A stretch of 55,458 bases of DNA from an uncultured Ruminococcus sp. GTDB taxonomy: Bacteria; Bacillota; Clostridia; Oscillospirales; Ruminococcaceae. The translations under genes and the position numbers were made by a program. The stretch is from positions 1 to 55,458 of the forward strand of contig CAMNFV010000002.1 in assembly GCA_946537515.1 (NCBI GenBank), given 5' to 3'. Positions 14,581-27,966 of the stretch are shown here, piece after piece. Position 1 is the stretch's first letter, and each line of letters begins with the position of its first letter. The notes under the pieces were generated by a model. It saw only the letters and a list, made by a program, of their open reading frames with translations, was not told the origin of the DNA and searched no databases.

Positions 14581-14655
14581 ATGAGAAATATCCTTTCTAT
14601 CGGCTGTATGCCGGTTGTTTCAGTTTGATTGTCGAGAAAAGGCAGGTGCGAATTC

Positions 14656-15594
14656 ATGCAAAAACCCAGTCCTAACAGAATCGCATTTGACAAAATCGCG
14701 GCGATCTGCGCGATTCTAGCTGCTGCATCCTTTGACTACGGATTTCGCATCTGGATGCTTGCCGGGATAGCATCCGCTGTTTCGGTTCTGACGGCGTGTC
14801 TTTGTCAGTTGCTGAAAAAGAAGCCGCTTGCAGACTGCATCCCGGACGCGCTGTGCATCGGATTGATTCTCCTTCTGATGCTGCCTGCGACAATCAGCAT
14901 TTCAATGGTTATCATGTCCTGTATTTTTGCAATTATCATCGGCAGAGTGATGTTCGGCGGCAAGGAAAATCCGGTAATTCCGCCGGCTGCCGTCGGTTAT
15001 TGCTTCTGTTTGTTAAATAATCGCGCACAGACCGTATCATTTCCCGCTGAAAAGGAGATCCTGCCGCTTTTTCAACTTGGCGGAATCGAAATGGCAGACG
15101 GTGTTTCATCCCTCTGGAACCGCGGCGGCAAATTCACGATGTCTGTTTCAGAGTGGCTGACCGGTCTTCCTTGTCAGCCGATCGGTACCGGCTCGATTGT
15201 TCTGCTCACAGCAGTCGCAGTTGTTCTGATTTTAAGACGTGCCGCTTCCGGTTGGGTTGTGATACCGGCGCTGGCTGCGCATATTACCAGCAGCCTTCTG
15301 ATCTCCAATCTGCAGCATCCTGTATCTGCTTTTATGGGCAGCGTACTGACAAATCAGCTCCTGATTGCGTTTCTCTTTTTACATGCTGACCCGGAATATG
15401 CACCGCCGACCCTTGCCGGTATTGCCTACGGCTTTGCGGTCGGATTTGCATCGTTCTTTGCAACTCGCGTTTTGTTTATTTATGACGCGCCGGTTCTGCT
15501 TGCAGTATTGTTCTCACCGTTTGTGATCTGGCTGCGCAGAATGATGATGTTTGAAGATGCAGAACCCTCTGCGGAAAGGGGGACTGCGGCTTGA
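14656..15594 (+). CDS. RnfD/NqrB-like membrane protein lacking the flavinylation motif
   Basis: RnfD-like AIIIGRVMFGGKENPVIPPAAVGY (cf. [20 protein letters not shown] of E. coli RsxD), late LLIAFLFLHADPEYAPPT (cf. GAFFILTDPVTASTT); DGVSSLW where RsxD has DGISQAT. Confidence 0.7.
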   Translation: MQKPSPNRIAFDKIAAICAILAAASFDYGFRIWMLAGIASAVSVLTACLCQLLKKKPLADCIPDALCIGLILLLMLPATISISMVIMSCIFAIIIGRVMFGGKENPVIPPAAVGYCFCLLNNRAQTVSFPAEKEILPLFQLGGIEMADGVSSLWNRGGKFTMSVSEWLTGLPCQPIGTGSIVLLTAVAVVLILRRAASGWVVIPALAAHITSSLLISNLQHPVSAFMGSVLTNQLLIAFLFLHADPEYAPPTLAGIAYGFAVGFASFFATRVLFIYDAPVLLAVLFSPFVIWLRRMMMFEDAEPSAERGTAA

Positions 15595-16166
15595 ATCATA
15601 CTGATAACTCTGTTCAACGTACAATTCTCGGCAGCGGGCTTCTGATTGCACCGATTGCTGCATTCTCCGCATCGGTCATGCAGGCGCTTGCGATGTCATT
15701 TGCATTTTTCTGTATGACGCTGCTGACTGTACTGCCTGCCGCCCTGATTCCGGTCAAACTCCCAGCTGCACTTCGTATTTTATTGTATTCTGTAATCGGC
15801 AGTTTGGTGTATATTCCTGTTGGGATTCTTACGGTCCATTTGTTCCCGCAGGTGTCAGGCGGAGTCTTTATTCCGATTCTGAGCTCTGCATTATATCTGA
15901 CGGCGTTATTTCAAGAAGTATTCCCGCGAAAAAGGCTCTTGAAATCGCTGATCCGGAATCTGATTTCTGTTCCGGCTGCCGCTGTTCTGACAGGCGCTCT
16001 GCGTGAATTATTCGGAAGCGCATCATTTGCGGGAATCTCTCTGCAATTTCAGCCGCCGCTGCCGATGCTGCTGCATCCTTCCGGCGGATTGATCCTTCTG
16101 ATTCTGCTGCTGACAGCAATTTCCGCATTGCGCAGAAGGGAGCATCTACATGCAGACAGCGATTGA
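15591..16166 (+). CDS. RnfE-like membrane protein lacking the conserved Cys ligands
   Basis: LTGALRELFGSASF (cf. RsxE LGSLREIIGNGTLF), LPMLLHPSGGLILL (cf. LLAMLPPGAFIGLG). TTG start overlapping the previous stop (TTGA). Confidence 0.65.
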   Translation: MNHTDNSVQRTILGSGLLIAPIAAFSASVMQALAMSFAFFCMTLLTVLPAALIPVKLPAALRILLYSVIGSLVYIPVGILTVHLFPQVSGGVFIPILSSALYLTALFQEVFPRKRLLKSLIRNLISVPAAAVLTGALRELFGSASFAGISLQFQPPLPMLLHPSGGLILLILLLTAISALRRREHLHADSD

Positions 16167-16707
16167 TTTTGCACTCATTATCATTCAGAATCTGGTGTTC
16201 CAGAATCTGCTTGGACTATCCCCGGCGGCAGTATCTGTAAAGAACGGAAAAGGACTCTTCCGGCTCGGCGTGATGACGCTGCTGTTCTGTACTGTGAGTG
16301 CAGGTATGACAGCGATTGTCCGTCCGTTGATTCCCGCCGGCTATCAGAAGCTTTTGTTTCCGCTCTGTAATGCATTGATCTGCGGGATTCTTTGTCTCAT
16401 ATTCACATTGATTTGCAGATTTTCTAAGCTGCTGCGCAGATTTGTGATTCCGCAGATTTATTACGCAGCGTGTTCATCTGCTGTACTCGGTGCTGTTTTG
16501 CTCAGCACGGACTATACCCACGATATTCCTGTCGCATTCCGTTACGGATTCCGCTGCGGAATCGGATATCTCGTGGTTTGCCTGATGCTGAAAATGGCTG
16601 CACCGCTGCTTTACAGCAAACAGATGCCCCGGGCGGTCCGCGGCTGGAAGGGGCTTCTGCTCTATGCAGGCGTGCTTTCTATGGCTGCCGCCTGTCTGTT
16701 CCCATAA
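16150..16707 (+). CDS. RnfA-like membrane protein lacking the conserved Cys ligands
   Basis: NLVFQNLLGLSPAAVSVKNGKG (cf. RsxA [22 protein letters not shown]), SSAVLGAVLL (cf. NCAVLGVALL), RGWKGLLLYAGVLSMAAACLF (cf. [20 protein letters not shown]). Confidence 0.75.
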   Translation: MQTAIDFALIIIQNLVFQNLLGLSPAAVSVKNGKGLFRLGVMTLLFCTVSAGMTAIVRPLIPAGYQKLLFPLCNALICGILCLIFTLICRFSKLLRRFVIPQIYYAACSSAVLGAVLLSTDYTHDIPVAFRYGFRCGIGYLVVCLMLKMAAPLLYSKQMPRAVRGWKGLLLYAGVLSMAAACLFP

Positions 16708-18260: not shown

Positions 18261-18929
18261 ATGTCAAAGAACATCGCGATCGACGGACCTTCCGGTGCCG
18301 GAAAAAGCACGCTAGCACGCCGGTTGGCTGCAAAGCTCGGCTTTATTTACGTTGATACCGGCGCTCTTTACCGCGCGATCGCACTCAGTATGCTTCGCCG
18401 GAACGCCGAAACAGAAGAACAGATCATCGGCAGTCTGCCGGAGCTGGATGTAACGCTTCAGTACATTGACGGCGAGCAGCATGTTTTCGCAAACGGCGAA
18501 GATGTGTCCGGCCTGATTCGTACCCCGGAAGTGACCATGAAAGCTTCCCGTGTATCCGCAATTCCGGAAGTCCGGAAGTATCTTTTCGATCTGCAGCAGA
18601 ATCTTGCACGAGAGAATTCGGTTGTCATGGACGGAAGAGATATCGGAACCGTGGTTCTGCCGAATGCTGATGTGAAAATTTTCCTGACGGCATCGCCTGA
18701 AAAAAGAGCGATGCGCCGCTGGCTTGAGATGCAGGAGAAGAACATTGTCGGACAGACATATGAAGAAGTTCTTGCAGATGTCATTCGCCGCGATGAACAG
18801 GATATGAACCGCGAGATTGCTCCGCTCAAGCAAGCCGACGATGCGATTCTCGTTGATACATCAGATCTGAATCTGGAGGAGTCTGAAAAGCTTCTTCTGA
18901 AAGTATGTAAGGAGAACCTCGAAAAATGA
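18261..18929 (+). CDS. cmk: Cytidylate kinase
   Basis: IAIDGPSGAGKSTLARRLA, YVDTGALYRAIAL, VMDGRDIGTVVLPNA, RRDEQDMNREIAPL. Confidence 0.95.
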   Translation: MSKNIAIDGPSGAGKSTLARRLAAKLGFIYVDTGALYRAIALSMLRRNAETEEQIIGSLPELDVTLQYIDGEQHVFANGEDVSGLIRTPEVTMKASRVSAIPEVRKYLFDLQQNLARENSVVMDGRDIGTVVLPNADVKIFLTASPEKRAMRRWLEMQEKNIVGQTYEEVLADVIRRDEQDMNREIAPLKQADDAILVDTSDLNLEESEKLLLKVCKENLEK

Positions 18930-21307
18930 ACGGGTTTTACAAATTTGCCATGACCGTCATGCGGCTCGTCATGCCGCTGTGGTATAAAATTGATGCCGAC
19001 GGTATGGAGTATCTTCCGGAGGAAGGCGGCTATCTGTTTGTCAGCAACCACCGGAGTATGGCAGATCCGATCCTGATCGGTGTGCAGAATCCGAAAACGC
19101 AGTTCTGTTTTCTCGCGAAACAGGAATTGTTCTCCGATGGCTTTATCGGGTGGTTACTGAAAAATCTCGGTGCTGTCGCGATTGACCGGGGAACAGGGGA
19201 CACCAATCCGCTTGAAGAGATTGAATTCCGCCTGCAAAACGGTGAGAATGCGTTGATTTTTCCGGAGGGTACACGTTCAAAAGACGGTACACTCGGAAAA
19301 TTCAAAACCGGTGCTGCGCTGATTGCTGCACAGACCGGCGTACCGATTGTTCCGGTCGGAATATTCTTTGATGACGATGAGCTGCATTTCCGCAGTACCA
19401 TTCATATCCGTTATGGCCAGCCGTTTCAGATTCCGCAGACGGATCCAAAAAATCCGTCGCCGGCTGTTCTGAAACAGGTTCGGCAGGAAATGACGAAAAA
19501 TGTCTCCGCGCTTCTGACTATGGATCCATACGGAGATCCGGCACTTGAAATGAAACATACTGCGAATTCGGATGCAGAAGATACCGAAAAAACCAAGACG
19601 AAGAAATCTGCGGAAGAAAATCTGAAATCGGAGGTTACAGAAAAGAAAATGAGCAAGCAGAATCAGAACGAAAAGAATCATAAGGAGAAACCTGAAGAAG
19701 AAAAGGATATCCTGAAGGATATCGAAGAAGAAATCGACGAAGTCGAAGATGATATCAAAGAAGCAGAGGAAAAGGCCGATGAAGCTGCTGAAACCGTTAA
19801 GGAAGCTGGCAAAAAGGCCGTAAAGGAAACCTCTGATGCGATTGATGAACTTGATGAAAAAGAAGAGAAGGAAGCGAAAAAGGCAGCATCTGCTATGAAA
19901 ACTTCTGATTCCTTCAAAAAGCGCATCAAGGATACGGAAAAGGATATCGAAGAAAAGTTCGATGAGGATGATTTCTTCGATGAGGATGAGAAATCTAAGA
20001 AGCAAAAGAAGGACAAGGCCGAAGAAGCTGTTGACGACGCTGAGGAAAAATTCTTTGAGGAAGAAGATTTTGATGAGGACTTCGACTTCGATGAAAAGCC
20101 CGGCCTCTTCAGCGGACTCTCTCTGAAGAATCCGTTTAAGAAGAAGAAAAAGGATAGCTTCGACGATTTCGACGATGATTTTGATGATGATCTCGATGAA
20201 GACAATCCCGATAACGCATACGAAGAGGAAGAGTATGATGACGATGACTATGATGACGAGGAAGTCGTCGGCAGAAGAATTGACTACGGCAAAATCGCGC
20301 TGATTCTGACGTTTGTGATTCTCGGTATCTTCGCGATTGATTTTATCATTCGTCTGTGGAATGATTATAAGCAGACAAAGGGACTGCTGGATCTTCAGAA
20401 TCAGTCCTCTAAGGTTGAATCTATGGTAGATTCTTCTGCTGAAACTGATGAAGCTCCGACCTCTGAAACAAGCTATGTTGAGACACTTGAAACAGAAGAA
20501 ACAACGACGCTTCAGCAGGAAACCGCTGCTTCGACAACGACTACCACAGCTGTAACAGTTGATAACAGAGATACGCAGACGATCGAAGTGACAAACGATT
20601 CGCTGCATAACGGCAGCCTCGTTCTCGTTGACGGAACACATCAAATGGTCGCCGCGCCGGCGCTCGTTACCTTTGCAAGCTTCGGCCCGCAGCATCTGCG
20701 TCTTGTCAGCACAGAGATGACGGTTGATTCTTCCCTTGCAACGCCGATCACAAACTGGTTCAATGATTTCTTCGCTGCAACCGGTCTCGGCAACGTCATG
20801 GTATACTCCACGACCGGCACACCGGGTTATCCGCCGTACTCCGTAGCAATTCCGGAGCGTTCTACCGGTCTGACGCTGGATCTCGCGATCCTGAATGAAG
20901 CAGCAGCAAGCCACTCCCCGTATACACCGGACGGCAATTATGCATGGCTGACCGAACATGCTGCTGATTACGGCTTTATCGTTCGTTATCCGGCCGGCAA
21001 GGAAGACAAGACCGGCATGGACGCTATGACATGGCACTTCCGTTATGTCGGTGCGCCGCACGCAAAGTATATGTATGACAACGATCTCTGCCTTGAGGAA
21101 TACCTCGAAGAGATCAAGAAGCATACCGTCAGCACAGATCATCTTGAGACGACTGTAAACGGTGTCAACTATGAAATGTTCTATGTTGCATCTGCTGATA
21201 CCGGTACAACAACCGAAATCAAGTATCCGATGACACCGGACGGCTCTACGCCGATCATTTCCGGCGATAATAACGGCGGTTTCATCGTCGCAGTTGTAAA
21301 GCAGTAA
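18926..21307 (+). CDS. Fusion protein: N-terminal 1-acyl-sn-glycerol-3-phosphate acyltransferase (PlsC) + highly charged linker + TM + C-terminal degenerate VanY/M15-like D,D-carboxypeptidase domain
   Basis: PlsC: SNHRSMADP, FPEGTRSKDG. TM: IALILTFVILGIFAIDFIIRLW. VanY-like: WLTEHAADYGFIVRYPAGKEDKTG...WHFRYVGAPHAKYMYDNDLCLEEYLEEI. Confidence 0.8.
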   Translation: MNGFYKFAMTVMRLVMPLWYKIDADGMEYLPEEGGYLFVSNHRSMADPILIGVQNPKTQFCFLAKQELFSDGFIGWLLKNLGAVAIDRGTGDTNPLEEIEFRLQNGENALIFPEGTRSKDGTLGKFKTGAALIAAQTGVPIVPVGIFFDDDELHFRSTIHIRYGQPFQIPQTDPKNPSPAVLKQVRQEMTKNVSALLTMDPYGDPALEMKHTANSDAEDTEKTKTKKSAEENLKSEVTEKKMSKQNQNEKNHKEKPEEEKDILKDIEEEIDEVEDDIKEAEEKADEAAETVKEAGKKAVKETSDAIDELDEKEEKEAKKAASAMKTSDSFKKRIKDTEKDIEEKFDEDDFFDEDEKSKKQKKDKAEEAVDDAEEKFFEEEDFDEDFDFDEKPGLFSGLSLKNPFKKKKKDSFDDFDDDFDDDLDEDNPDNAYEEEEYDDDDYDDEEVVGRRIDYGKIALILTFVILGIFAIDFIIRLWNDYKQTKGLLDLQNQSSKVESMVDSSAETDEAPTSETSYVETLETEETTTLQQETAASTTTTTAVTVDNRDTQTIEVTNDSLHNGSLVLVDGTHQMVAAPALVTFASFGPQHLRLVSTEMTVDSSLATPITNWFNDFFAATGLGNVMVYSTTGTPGYPPYSVAIPERSTGLTLDLAILNEAAASHSPYTPDGNYAWLTEHAADYGFIVRYPAGKEDKTGMDAMTWHFRYVGAPHAKYMYDNDLCLEEYLEEIKKHTVSTDHLETTVNGVNYEMFYVASADTGTTTEIKYPMTPDGSTPIISGDNNGGFIVAVVKQ

Positions 21308-21354: not shown

Positions 21355-21429
21355 ATTTTGCAGATTTTTTGTAACCGATTCAATCATACTGCTGACTTAT
21401 AGAGTGAAGGACCTTCACGAAAGGATGTG

Positions 21430-21996
21430 ATGTACATGAACGACGATCAGATTATTGCGTTACTTGAGCAGCGCAGCGAGCGGGCACTCGTTGAAATACG
21501 GCATAAATACGGCAAAAGCTGTCAGACAATCGCACTTCGTTTTCTCGGGGACACGCTGGATGCTGATGAAATCGTGAATGACACATTGCTCCATACCTGG
21601 AACGCAATTCCGCCTGCGAAACCCAAAAATCTGTTTTCTTATCTCGCGGCAATCACGAAACGGAAGGCGATCAATCGCTATGAATATGAGCACGCTGTCA
21701 AGCGCGGCGGCAAATGTGAGCAGAATGCCGTGCTTGATGAGCTGGCTTCCTGTATTCCGTCTGATGAAAATGTCCCTGAGAAGATTGAGCAGCAGCAGCT
21801 GAGTGCTGCAATCAATCAGTTTCTACGGTCATTAAAAGCATTGGATCGTGCGATTATGATTCAGCGATATGTCAATCTGCACTCTGTCCGTGAAATCGCA
21901 GAAAGCTATCAGATTTCGGAGAGCAAAGTCAAAATTACGCTGATGCGTACCCGAAAAAAGCTGCGCAGCTATCTTGAGCAGGAGGAGTGGCTATGA
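21430..21996 (+). CDS. ECF RNA polymerase sigma factor
   Basis: LGDTLDADEIVNDTLLHTWNAIPPAKPKNLFSYLAAITKRKAINRY; LDRAIMIQRYVNLHSVREIAESYQISESKVKITLMRTRKKLRSYL. Confidence 0.9.
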   Translation: MYMNDDQIIALLEQRSERALVEIRHKYGKSCQTIALRFLGDTLDADEIVNDTLLHTWNAIPPAKPKNLFSYLAAITKRKAINRYEYEHAVKRGGKCEQNAVLDELASCIPSDENVPEKIEQQQLSAAINQFLRSLKALDRAIMIQRYVNLHSVREIAESYQISESKVKITLMRTRKKLRSYLEQEEWL

Positions 21997-23657
21997 ACAA
22001 ATTTGATCTCTATCGTGCGTTCCAGGATATCAGTCCGGATCTTATGGAAGAAGCAGAGCGGCTGACAGTTCAGGAACCGCAATACCACGACGAAAAATCA
22101 AAAAAACGCTTGCTCTTCCTGAGAACCCACGAGGAGGAAATCATGAGTAAGCAGAATAAACCGATTCGCATGTTGACGGGAATTGCGGCGGTGATCGCGG
22201 TATGCAGCATCGGTGTCGCCGGGTACTACGCGATTCATCCTAAGATTGCAGGTCAGCCGGAATCGTCAGCAAATATGACAGCTGATACGACGAATCTGAC
22301 AGAAGAAACTGTCACAGCAGACGCCGTAACATCCACCACCGCTTCAGAAACCGATCAGAATCTCCCGGTAGATTTGATTGAGGAGACCGTAACACAGATT
22401 CAGGAGACTGACACAAACCCTGACATACTTGAGGAAGATCAGCGCAGGATTGATGACAACAGTGCTTCATGGGGCGTCGGGGCAAACTTGTATTCCGATT
22501 CGCCGCATGCGCTGAATCCGGAATTAGTTTACAACGGCGAAAAAGTCTGCCTTGATCTCAATTTCATCCTTGATCTCTACGGAACGAATATTCCGGATTC
22601 CGTTCCTGTGACGATCGTCATGATGCAGGACGGTGAAATCATCCCTGTTTCTCTCACCAAAAACGGCAAGCCGGAAACGTCGCTGACATTTGATAAGCCG
22701 ATTGACAAGAAATACTATACCAATCGTCTGATAATTAGAATGAAAGAACATCTTGGTGATGATACGGTTCAGAAGATCGGAGATAGTCTTGGAAAGATTA
22801 GTGGAATCACGGAAGTCAAGCATCGCATGAAAACGCCGGGCACAATGGGCTACAATACGTATGACGTCAAGCTGAAGAGCGAGCTGCTTGCAAATGACGA
22901 AAACCTTTATGTTGAGATCCGGGATAAAATCTATGCGATCTCCGAAATTGAAAAGGTCGAACGGGTTGAAGAAAGAAGCAGTTCTCAGGAATCTAATGAT
23001 ACAACGCAGACCGTTTGGTTTACGCCGCATTGTCGTTCCAATAATAGCTGCCTGTCTACAGCAGTCATTTATCATTACGCAAACGCCCAATACCCGGCAC
23101 AAGGTTACCTTTGCTTCAACGTTCGGACGCGGCTTTATTGCCCCGAACCGGATACGGAATGTGATTCTTCTGCTTATTATCAGGTGGCGGCAGACGATGA
23201 CTATATAGACTTTCCTGAAGCTATGATGGATGAAAATTTTACAGGTTCAAACGGTATTGCAGTCGGAGCCTGCCAGAACTACAGCTTCGACGCCGGTCCG
23301 AATAAATACAGTATCGGGAATCCAATAGGGAATTATGCTGAGACGCTCAACCGAAATGAAATCTATCTCAAAACGCATTTAGATAGACAAACGATAGAGA
23401 ATTTTCATATGCCTGAAAAAATGTACGCGCTTCTGCTCTGTGACGGAAAGCCGGTCGGGCTTGCAAACGGCAAAGATTCGGTTCTTTTTGATTTTGATCC
23501 TGCAAAAACGCTGAATTATAAGCTGAATCTTGATCCTTCGATCACAGACGGCGAACACAGCTTCTGTGTCTTTCTGGCACCGGCGGTTGATACGGAATGT
23601 GATTTGAATACAATCCCGTATGAATGGTACAGCATGATGCTTAATGTGCAGTCATAA
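21993..23657 (+). CDS. Putative membrane-anchored anti-sigma factor with large extracytoplasmic domain
   Basis: Start overlaps sigma stop (ATGA); short cytoplasmic N-term, TM (MLTGIAAVIAVCSIGVAGYYAI), Thr-rich linker, ~450-aa exterior domain. Confidence 0.7.
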   Translation: MNKFDLYRAFQDISPDLMEEAERLTVQEPQYHDEKSKKRLLFLRTHEEEIMSKQNKPIRMLTGIAAVIAVCSIGVAGYYAIHPKIAGQPESSANMTADTTNLTEETVTADAVTSTTASETDQNLPVDLIEETVTQIQETDTNPDILEEDQRRIDDNSASWGVGANLYSDSPHALNPELVYNGEKVCLDLNFILDLYGTNIPDSVPVTIVMMQDGEIIPVSLTKNGKPETSLTFDKPIDKKYYTNRLIIRMKEHLGDDTVQKIGDSLGKISGITEVKHRMKTPGTMGYNTYDVKLKSELLANDENLYVEIRDKIYAISEIEKVERVEERSSSQESNDTTQTVWFTPHCRSNNSCLSTAVIYHYANAQYPAQGYLCFNVRTRLYCPEPDTECDSSAYYQVAADDDYIDFPEAMMDENFTGSNGIAVGACQNYSFDAGPNKYSIGNPIGNYAETLNRNEIYLKTHLDRQTIENFHMPEKMYALLLCDGKPVGLANGKDSVLFDFDPAKTLNYKLNLDPSITDGEHSFCVFLAPAVDTECDLNTIPYEWYSMMLNVQS

Positions 23658-27138: not shown

Positions 27139-27966
27139 ATGGCAAAACGAAGAAGAGTCCGCTGGGACCGCGTTTTATTGGTCTTCGGTCCATTGTTGTT
27201 ACTGATCCTGATTTTGTGTTTCAGCTGTCATCACCGCGACAAAGATACAATGGATCAAACATCATCGCCGGATAATCTGGTAGAATCCAGTCTTCCTGCT
27301 GAAACATCAGAAGTTGCCGTGCCTGTCGAAGCAGAAGCACGTCCGCTGGTCATCTGCATTGATGCAGGCCACGGCGGCAAAGACAGCGGCGCAACCGATA
27401 AGCCCAATGACAAATCCATGAGCGAGGCAAATAAGCGTTTGGAAAAAAACGATAACCTCAATCTTTCGCTTGCTGTTCGGGATGCGTTTCAGAAGTATCC
27501 GGATATTCAGGTTATCATGACACGTGAAACAGATGTGTTTGTAGAATTGCAGGACCGCTGTGATATCGCGAACAATGCGAATGCTGACTTTTTCATTTCG
27601 CTGCACCGGAATATGGCTGAAAACGGTAAAGGCGTTGAAGTCTGGATCAACAATGATTCGATGGGCGATAACACGATGGATAAGCTCATGTCAGAATACA
27701 TACTGGACTGGCTTGAAAAAGTCGGAATCTCCGAGCGACGCGGCATCCATTACGGCTTCCGCGAGGGCGAAGGCAACTATGAAAGCAACAACTATTACGT
27801 TAACCGATATACCAATATGCCGAGTATCCTGCTTGAGATGGGCTTTATGACCTCAAAGGAGGACAACCGCAACTTCGACGATCATCTTGAGGAATATGCA
27901 GATGCGATCGCATCCGCGATGATTGAATTGCTCACCGACAAGGGCTTATACCCGGTACAAACATAA
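27139..27966 (+). CDS. N-acetylmuramoyl-L-alanine amidase (Amidase_3), membrane-anchored
   Basis: VICIDAGHGGKDSGA, VIMTRETDVFVELQDRCDIANNANADFFISLHRN, PSILLEMGFMTSKEDNR. Confidence 0.95.
   Translation: MAKRRRVRWDRVLLVFGPLLLLILILCFSCHHRDKDTMDQTSSPDNLVESSLPAETSEVAVPVEAEARPLVICIDAGHGGKDSGATDKPNDKSMSEANKRLEKNDNLNLSLAVRDAFQKYPDIQVIMTRETDVFVELQDRCDIANNANADFFISLHRNMAENGKGVEVWINNDSMGDNTMDKLMSEYILDWLEKVGISERRGIHYGFREGEGNYESNNYYVNRYTNMPSILLEMGFMTSKEDNRNFDDHLEEYADAIASAMIELLTDKGLYPVQT

Follow-up and report, generated by a model that had tools for sequence, protein, structure and literature searches.

Can an enzyme of phospholipid synthesis inside the cell and a relative of a wall enzyme outside it form a single polypeptide and, if so, what would the exterior part do? 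This question is raised by one gene in the window, a stretch of 55,458 nucleotides from an uncultured Ruminococcus sp. (assembly GCA_946537515.1, contig CAMNFV010000002.1). To our knowledge, the coordination of membrane and wall growth in bacteria is largely open, and the published links between the two are mostly genetic. The effect of PlsX on the envelope balance of E. coli is an example of such a link (PMC13060810). With PlsC on one side of the membrane and a wall-enzyme relative on the other, the sequence described here suggests that membrane synthesis and the cell wall may be physically linked.

The gene lies at positions 18926-21307 of the plus strand as a single uninterrupted open reading frame of 793 codons, whose start overlaps the end of cmk by four bases (Table 1). 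The first-pass annotation had described one 793-residue chain made of PlsC, a linker, a transmembrane segment and a VanY-like domain, and this layout is confirmed by the frame itself, by Pfam and by hydropathy. Outside the PlsC domain, the hydropathy profile displays one strong peak, at about residues 455-478, and we infer that the C-terminal VanY-like part faces the cell exterior. The linker (210 residues) is made up of 41% Asp and Glu, and of 19% Lys and Arg.

Table 1. Positions in the window of cmk and of the parts of the fused gene
Feature	Position	Strand	Basis or remark
cmk, cytidylate kinase	18261..18929	+	Pfam PF02224, 8.2e-72; stop overlaps plsC start (ATGA)
PlsC (1-acyl-glycerol-3-phosphate acyltransferase) domain, residues 1-200	18926..19525	+	PF01553, TIGR00530, motifs
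PlsC C-terminal tail, residues 201-241	19526..19648	+	length differs between species
GGAGG-N14-ATG (M242), probable internal ribosome-binding site with start codon, kept from the once-separate second gene	19630..19651	+	conservation
Acidic linker, cytoplasmic, residues 242-451	19649..20278	+	net charge -48
Single transmembrane helix RRxDYGxIALILTFVILGIFAxDF, residues 452-478	20279..20359	+	hydropathy; can be aligned to the N-termini of the separately encoded proteins
Exterior Ser/Thr-rich stalk, residues 479-545	20360..20560	+	36% Ser + Thr
Exterior pseudo-carboxypeptidase domain, VanY-like and extended at its C-terminus as in VanXYG, residues 546-793	20561..21304	+	PDB 4f78 match
PERSTGLTLD, residues 643-652	20852..20881	+	Arg (R645) in place of the first zinc His; Asp still present (D652)
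MTWH, residues 701-704	21026..21037	+	catalytic Glu replaced by Met (M701); second zinc His kept (H704)

The N-terminal part has the sequence features of PlsC. The acyltransferase family PF01553 matches residues 22-146 (3.5e-30; 104.9 bits for a cut-off of 23), and TIGR00530 is matched just under its NCBIfam cut-off (3.8e-29; 101.1 bits for 102.95); in the NCBIfam search, PlsC and VanY families were both hit, neither of them above cut-off. Motif I (NHxxxxD) reads NHRSMAD at residues 41-47 and motif III (FPEGTR) reads FPEGTRS at residues 112-118, so that both are intact, as previously annotated. The protein shares with other PlsC enzymes (PF01553, TIGR00530) the two catalytic motifs and the cmk-plsC gene order, but differs from them in being fused at its C-terminus, through an acidic linker of about 210 residues, to a membrane-anchored exterior domain. 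Besides, it is the only PF01553 match detected in six of the seven fused-type genomes tested, namely the window's genome (91% complete), G009 (99% complete), G011 (98%), G020, G017 and G010; three matches were found in G016. In this lineage of Ruminococcus-like bacteria from gut and rumen, the fused PlsC would be the main enzyme for its membrane-lipid step.

The exterior domain belongs, by sequence, with the M15 LAS metallopeptidases VanXYG, VanY and LdcB (PF02557; 4f78, 4ox3, 5zhf). The Pfam match to VanY (PF02557, residues 646-709, 1.3e-11, 44.9 bits for a cut-off of 25) covers only profile positions 67-131, which is the C-terminal half, and a sequence search of solved structures returned VanXYG first (4f78, 2.5e-20), then LdcB and VanYB, the LdcB/YodJ of B. 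subtilis (4ox3) being matched at 8.2e-18. In LdcB, zinc is held by His153, Asp160 and His207 with Glu204 aiding catalysis, activity is abolished by EDTA, and the E204A change leaves a little residual activity (PMC4087270). When aligned to 4f78 and 4ox3, the domain has R645 in the place of the first zinc His and M701 in that of the Glu, with D652 and H704 at the other two ligands; an ungapped alignment pairs LdcB His153/Asp160/His207/Glu204 with R645/D652/H704/M701. The zinc site is Arg-Asp-His instead of His-Asp-His in 28 of 28 orthologues, and the catalytic Glu expected three residues before the second zinc His is absent from all 28, being Met in the window. In addition, the SGYRS...Q substrate block, which contains Arg120 in SpLdcB, is replaced by VYxTTxxP in most orthologues, and the equivalents of the LdcB substrate-contact residues Arg120, Ser151 and Tyr201 are also lost, as read from the ungapped alignment; binding of the ancestral ligand can therefore not be assumed, and the rebuilt pocket may accommodate a different one. 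Since these changes are conserved across the orthologous group, they do not reflect decay in one genome. The first-pass annotation had read the His to Arg and Glu to Met replacements, the unrecognisable substrate block and a catalytically dead-looking domain from the single sequence, and all of these hold in the HMMER and 28-orthologue alignments. An alternative alignment restoring the zinc site was ruled out, as the HMMER alignments to 4f78 and 4ox3 agree with the 28-member one. As for the fold, an AlphaFold model built from eight sequences has 4f78 as its best Foldseek match (E 7e-9), followed by LdcB and VanY structures; the VanXYG fold suggested by sequence comes out on top, although this model is of low confidence (mean pLDDT 51.5) and supportive only.

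Taken together, the sequence data support a domain that has lost normal zinc binding and peptide cleavage. It resembles the active enzymes in sequence, in predicted fold, in the kept Asp and second zinc His, in its exterior location behind a single membrane helix and, for VanXYG, in the C-terminal extension, but departs from them in the loss of the first zinc His, of the Glu and of the SGYRS...Q block. That it would still be an enzyme, with an altered metal site or another reaction, is very unlikely: the Asp, the second His and the Trp persist, as does the region of the YP/RY motif, and LdcB E204A retains some residual activity, but both the first zinc His and the Glu are lost in 28/28 orthologues, and metal is needed for LdcB activity (PMC4087270).

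The fusion was then surveyed in 30 genomes of the window's genus, by reading the loci. It is complete in 13 of them, where the open frame spans roughly 790-1070 codons; in another two, G003 and G022, the PlsC half is present through the junction up to a contig break inside the linker, and G014 has the linker and VanY part only, at a contig edge. In 11 genomes, plsC and the VanY-like gene adjoin as separate genes, the plsC stop overlapping the next start as ATGA in four of them (G007, G018, G019, G024) and a short gap carrying a ribosome-binding site separating the two in others. The separate second genes mostly begin with M-(N/R/A)-RR-x-DYG, which leads directly into the helix located at residue 452 in the window's protein. 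The existence of two genes in sister species might suggest that an assembly or frameshift error has merged them in the window. This explanation is practically ruled out, because the same continuous frame is found in 13 separate assemblies with linkers of different lengths, which also settles the doubt initially raised about the continuity of the frame.

In the light of these split loci, the comparison shows that the fusion arose by joining two translationally coupled genes, plsC and a gene for a type-II membrane protein, as judged from sequence. The first-pass annotation had rightly recognised the fusion and its charged linker of about 200 residues, but had missed that sister species encode the two parts in separate, coupled genes, and that the linker belongs to the VanY-like gene. 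The latter follows from G023, where the genes are split and the acidic linker is the N-terminus of the separate VanY-like gene. In a tree of both parts joined, all linker-bearing genes group together (support 84), next to G008, which has separate genes. The fused genes alone as one clade are not rejected (AU test, p 0.15), with G023 either sister to them or nested among them, so that G023 may represent an intermediate or a secondary split.

The neighbourhood cmk-plsC-VanY-like is the sole conserved one, cmk adjoining plsC in 22 of 23 loci of the genus. No further linked plsC/VanY-like pair was found in 149 genomes of the family or 245 of the order, and among the 124 family genera sampled the linkage was seen only in the window's genus, with the limit that at most six candidates per genome were scored in the family search, so that a few pairs might be missed. 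A named genome collection returned seven fused loci, apparently all from genomes already counted, together with weak PlsC or VanY matches; these records are metagenome-assembled genomes of Ruminococcus sp., Oscillospiraceae and Clostridia, for several of which the label names the rumen of buffalo or sheep, the omasum of sheep, or pig. Among viral contigs, none matched the VanY-like domain of the fusion, and ten matched active VanY and were left aside. In four genomes from other genera of the family (G094, G064, G078, G103), plsC lies inside a frame of 440-530 codons, perhaps a cmk-plsC fusion.

Beyond the genus, the same 149 family and 245 order genomes contained a single close relative of the anchored domain, in G146, a single-contig genome that may be from a cultured Ruminococcus. 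This relative keeps the Arg-Asp-His pattern, lacks the Glu, and is located away from plsC, with a Peptidase_S11 gene (serine D-Ala-D-Ala carboxypeptidase) on one side and, on the other, a DUF4846 gene and then a dapF-like frame (L074:383-3975).

A further, probable trace of the former second gene, which the first-pass annotation missed although it had seen the linker, is found inside this linker. GAGG-N14-ATGAG, with M242 as the ATG in the window, forms an ungapped block in an otherwise hypervariable region in 15 of the 15 readable fused genes, the upstream element being GGAGG in 11 and GAGGAG in four. GAGG and ATGAG show zero changes across the tree of the 15 genes, compared with an average of 3.6 changes at third positions of the PlsC domain on the same tree, 6% of which are unchanged. 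Ser AGY codons are slow to change, and the conservation of ATGAG alone is for this reason weak evidence. The region around M242 is weakly structured in all 15 species, ranking among the weakest 1-14% of codon positions, and the codon after GAG is always GNN, encoding V, A, D, E or G. The spacing is 14 nt for GGAGG and, in four species, 12 nt for AGGAG, compared with genus norms of 6-10 and 7-11, respectively; the start may therefore be weak or unused. The element is probably the leftover, possibly weak, internal start of the once-separate second gene, and could also yield the membrane-anchored pseudo-VanY alone. Programmed frameshifting at the ATGA was considered as well, since a +1 shift would run into the TGA, but inspection by eye revealed no slippery site. 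In mrcB, clpB and infB, internal in-frame starts are known to give short products (PMC11005335); as in these genes, one gene could give a long and a short product with a common C-terminus, but the start predicted here differs in resembling a remnant of a formerly separate gene. A strong internal start, making the pseudo-VanY mostly a separate protein and the full fusion a minor one, appears improbable. The unchanged GAGG and ATGAG, the constant GNN despite five amino acids, the low local structure in all 15 species and the separate start of G023 at the equivalent place all speak for it, but the spacing of 14 nt (12 nt for AGGAG in four species) lies off the genus peak of 6-11, and the fusion must be made as well, since ribosomes coming from the plsC start meet no stop.

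With regard to function, the sequence supports a polypeptide with a cytoplasmic N-terminal PlsC, followed by the extended acidic linker, a single membrane helix and finally a VanY fold that is inactive and presumably exterior, and this polypeptide originated when the frames of plsC and of a translationally coupled type-II membrane protein gene were joined; with the former start of the second gene apparently preserved within the linker, two products may be made, the fusion and a shorter pseudo-VanY anchored in the membrane. The exterior domain could bind a component of the wall or of wall synthesis without catalysis, and this binding could place or tune the PlsC step where the envelope grows. 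The reading that we tentatively prefer, with a probability of roughly 0.42, is that the exterior domain acts as a non-catalytic, wall-facing anchor or sensor positioning PlsC. This reading is weakened by the species with separate genes, in which a covalent linkage is evidently dispensable. A more elaborate version, already sketched in part by the proposal of a peptidoglycan-sensing domain tethered to lipid synthesis, is that the main PlsC is coupled through the membrane to a pseudo-carboxypeptidase reading the state of peptidoglycan, so that phospholipid synthesis follows wall growth, and that the internal start determines how much of the sensor is coupled and how much is free; we regard it as speculative and rather unlikely.

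The two halves might also have unrelated jobs, the coupled genes having fused by loss of a stop codon and the fusion fixing only their ratio and the membrane attachment. The separate genes of 11 sister genomes and the pseudo-VanY of G146, far from plsC, agree with this, but plsC and the VanY-like gene remain neighbours throughout the genus, also where they are not fused, and nearly all members of a diverse clade retain the fused frame although their tails of 26-148 codons are prone to stops. This explanation is accordingly a less likely one, without being far-fetched, and positioning of PlsC by the exterior domain stays our working model.

Each part of this protein is already known; no account of a PlsC-VanY fusion, of an inactive VanY or of a retained start element was found in the open-licence papers searched, so that the joining of these parts, the conservation of the pseudo-VanY and the start element kept in the linker appear new as far as this literature goes. 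Overlapping, split and fused versions of the pair occur naturally, which makes the value of a covalent link testable. Besides, the locus provides a possible example of a fused gene keeping an internal start, and a pseudo-VanY conserved throughout a lineage that automatic annotation would label as a D-Ala-D-Ala carboxypeptidase.

The genus has two further families of membrane-anchored VanY-like proteins, MAEYRS and RRRIRWDR, which resemble the exterior part of the fusion in having one N-terminal helix, a stalk and a VanY domain, but have no plsC linkage and carry different residue replacements. In the first one (MAEYRSxGxELRKSP; L002/L063 in G000:C61, L065, L066), the active site is degenerate in the window's genome and in G017, whereas HxxGxAxD and EPWH are intact in G013 and G025, and catalysis would have been lost repeatedly in this family. 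In the second one (RRxIRWDR; L003 in G000:C261, L067-L070, L073), nearly all active-site residues are gone in every member read. A membrane-anchored N-acetylmuramoyl-L-alanine amidase (Amidase_3) at positions 27139-27963 of the window has an RRxRWDR N-terminus in common with this second family. Upstream of the fused gene, three adjoining genes at 14629-16707, one matching NQR2/RnfD and two matching Rnf-Nqr subunits weakly, form a partial Rnf-like cluster. Finally, the region 21427-23657 encodes an ECF sigma factor and then a 556-residue membrane protein without any Pfam match, which is probably its anti-sigma factor.
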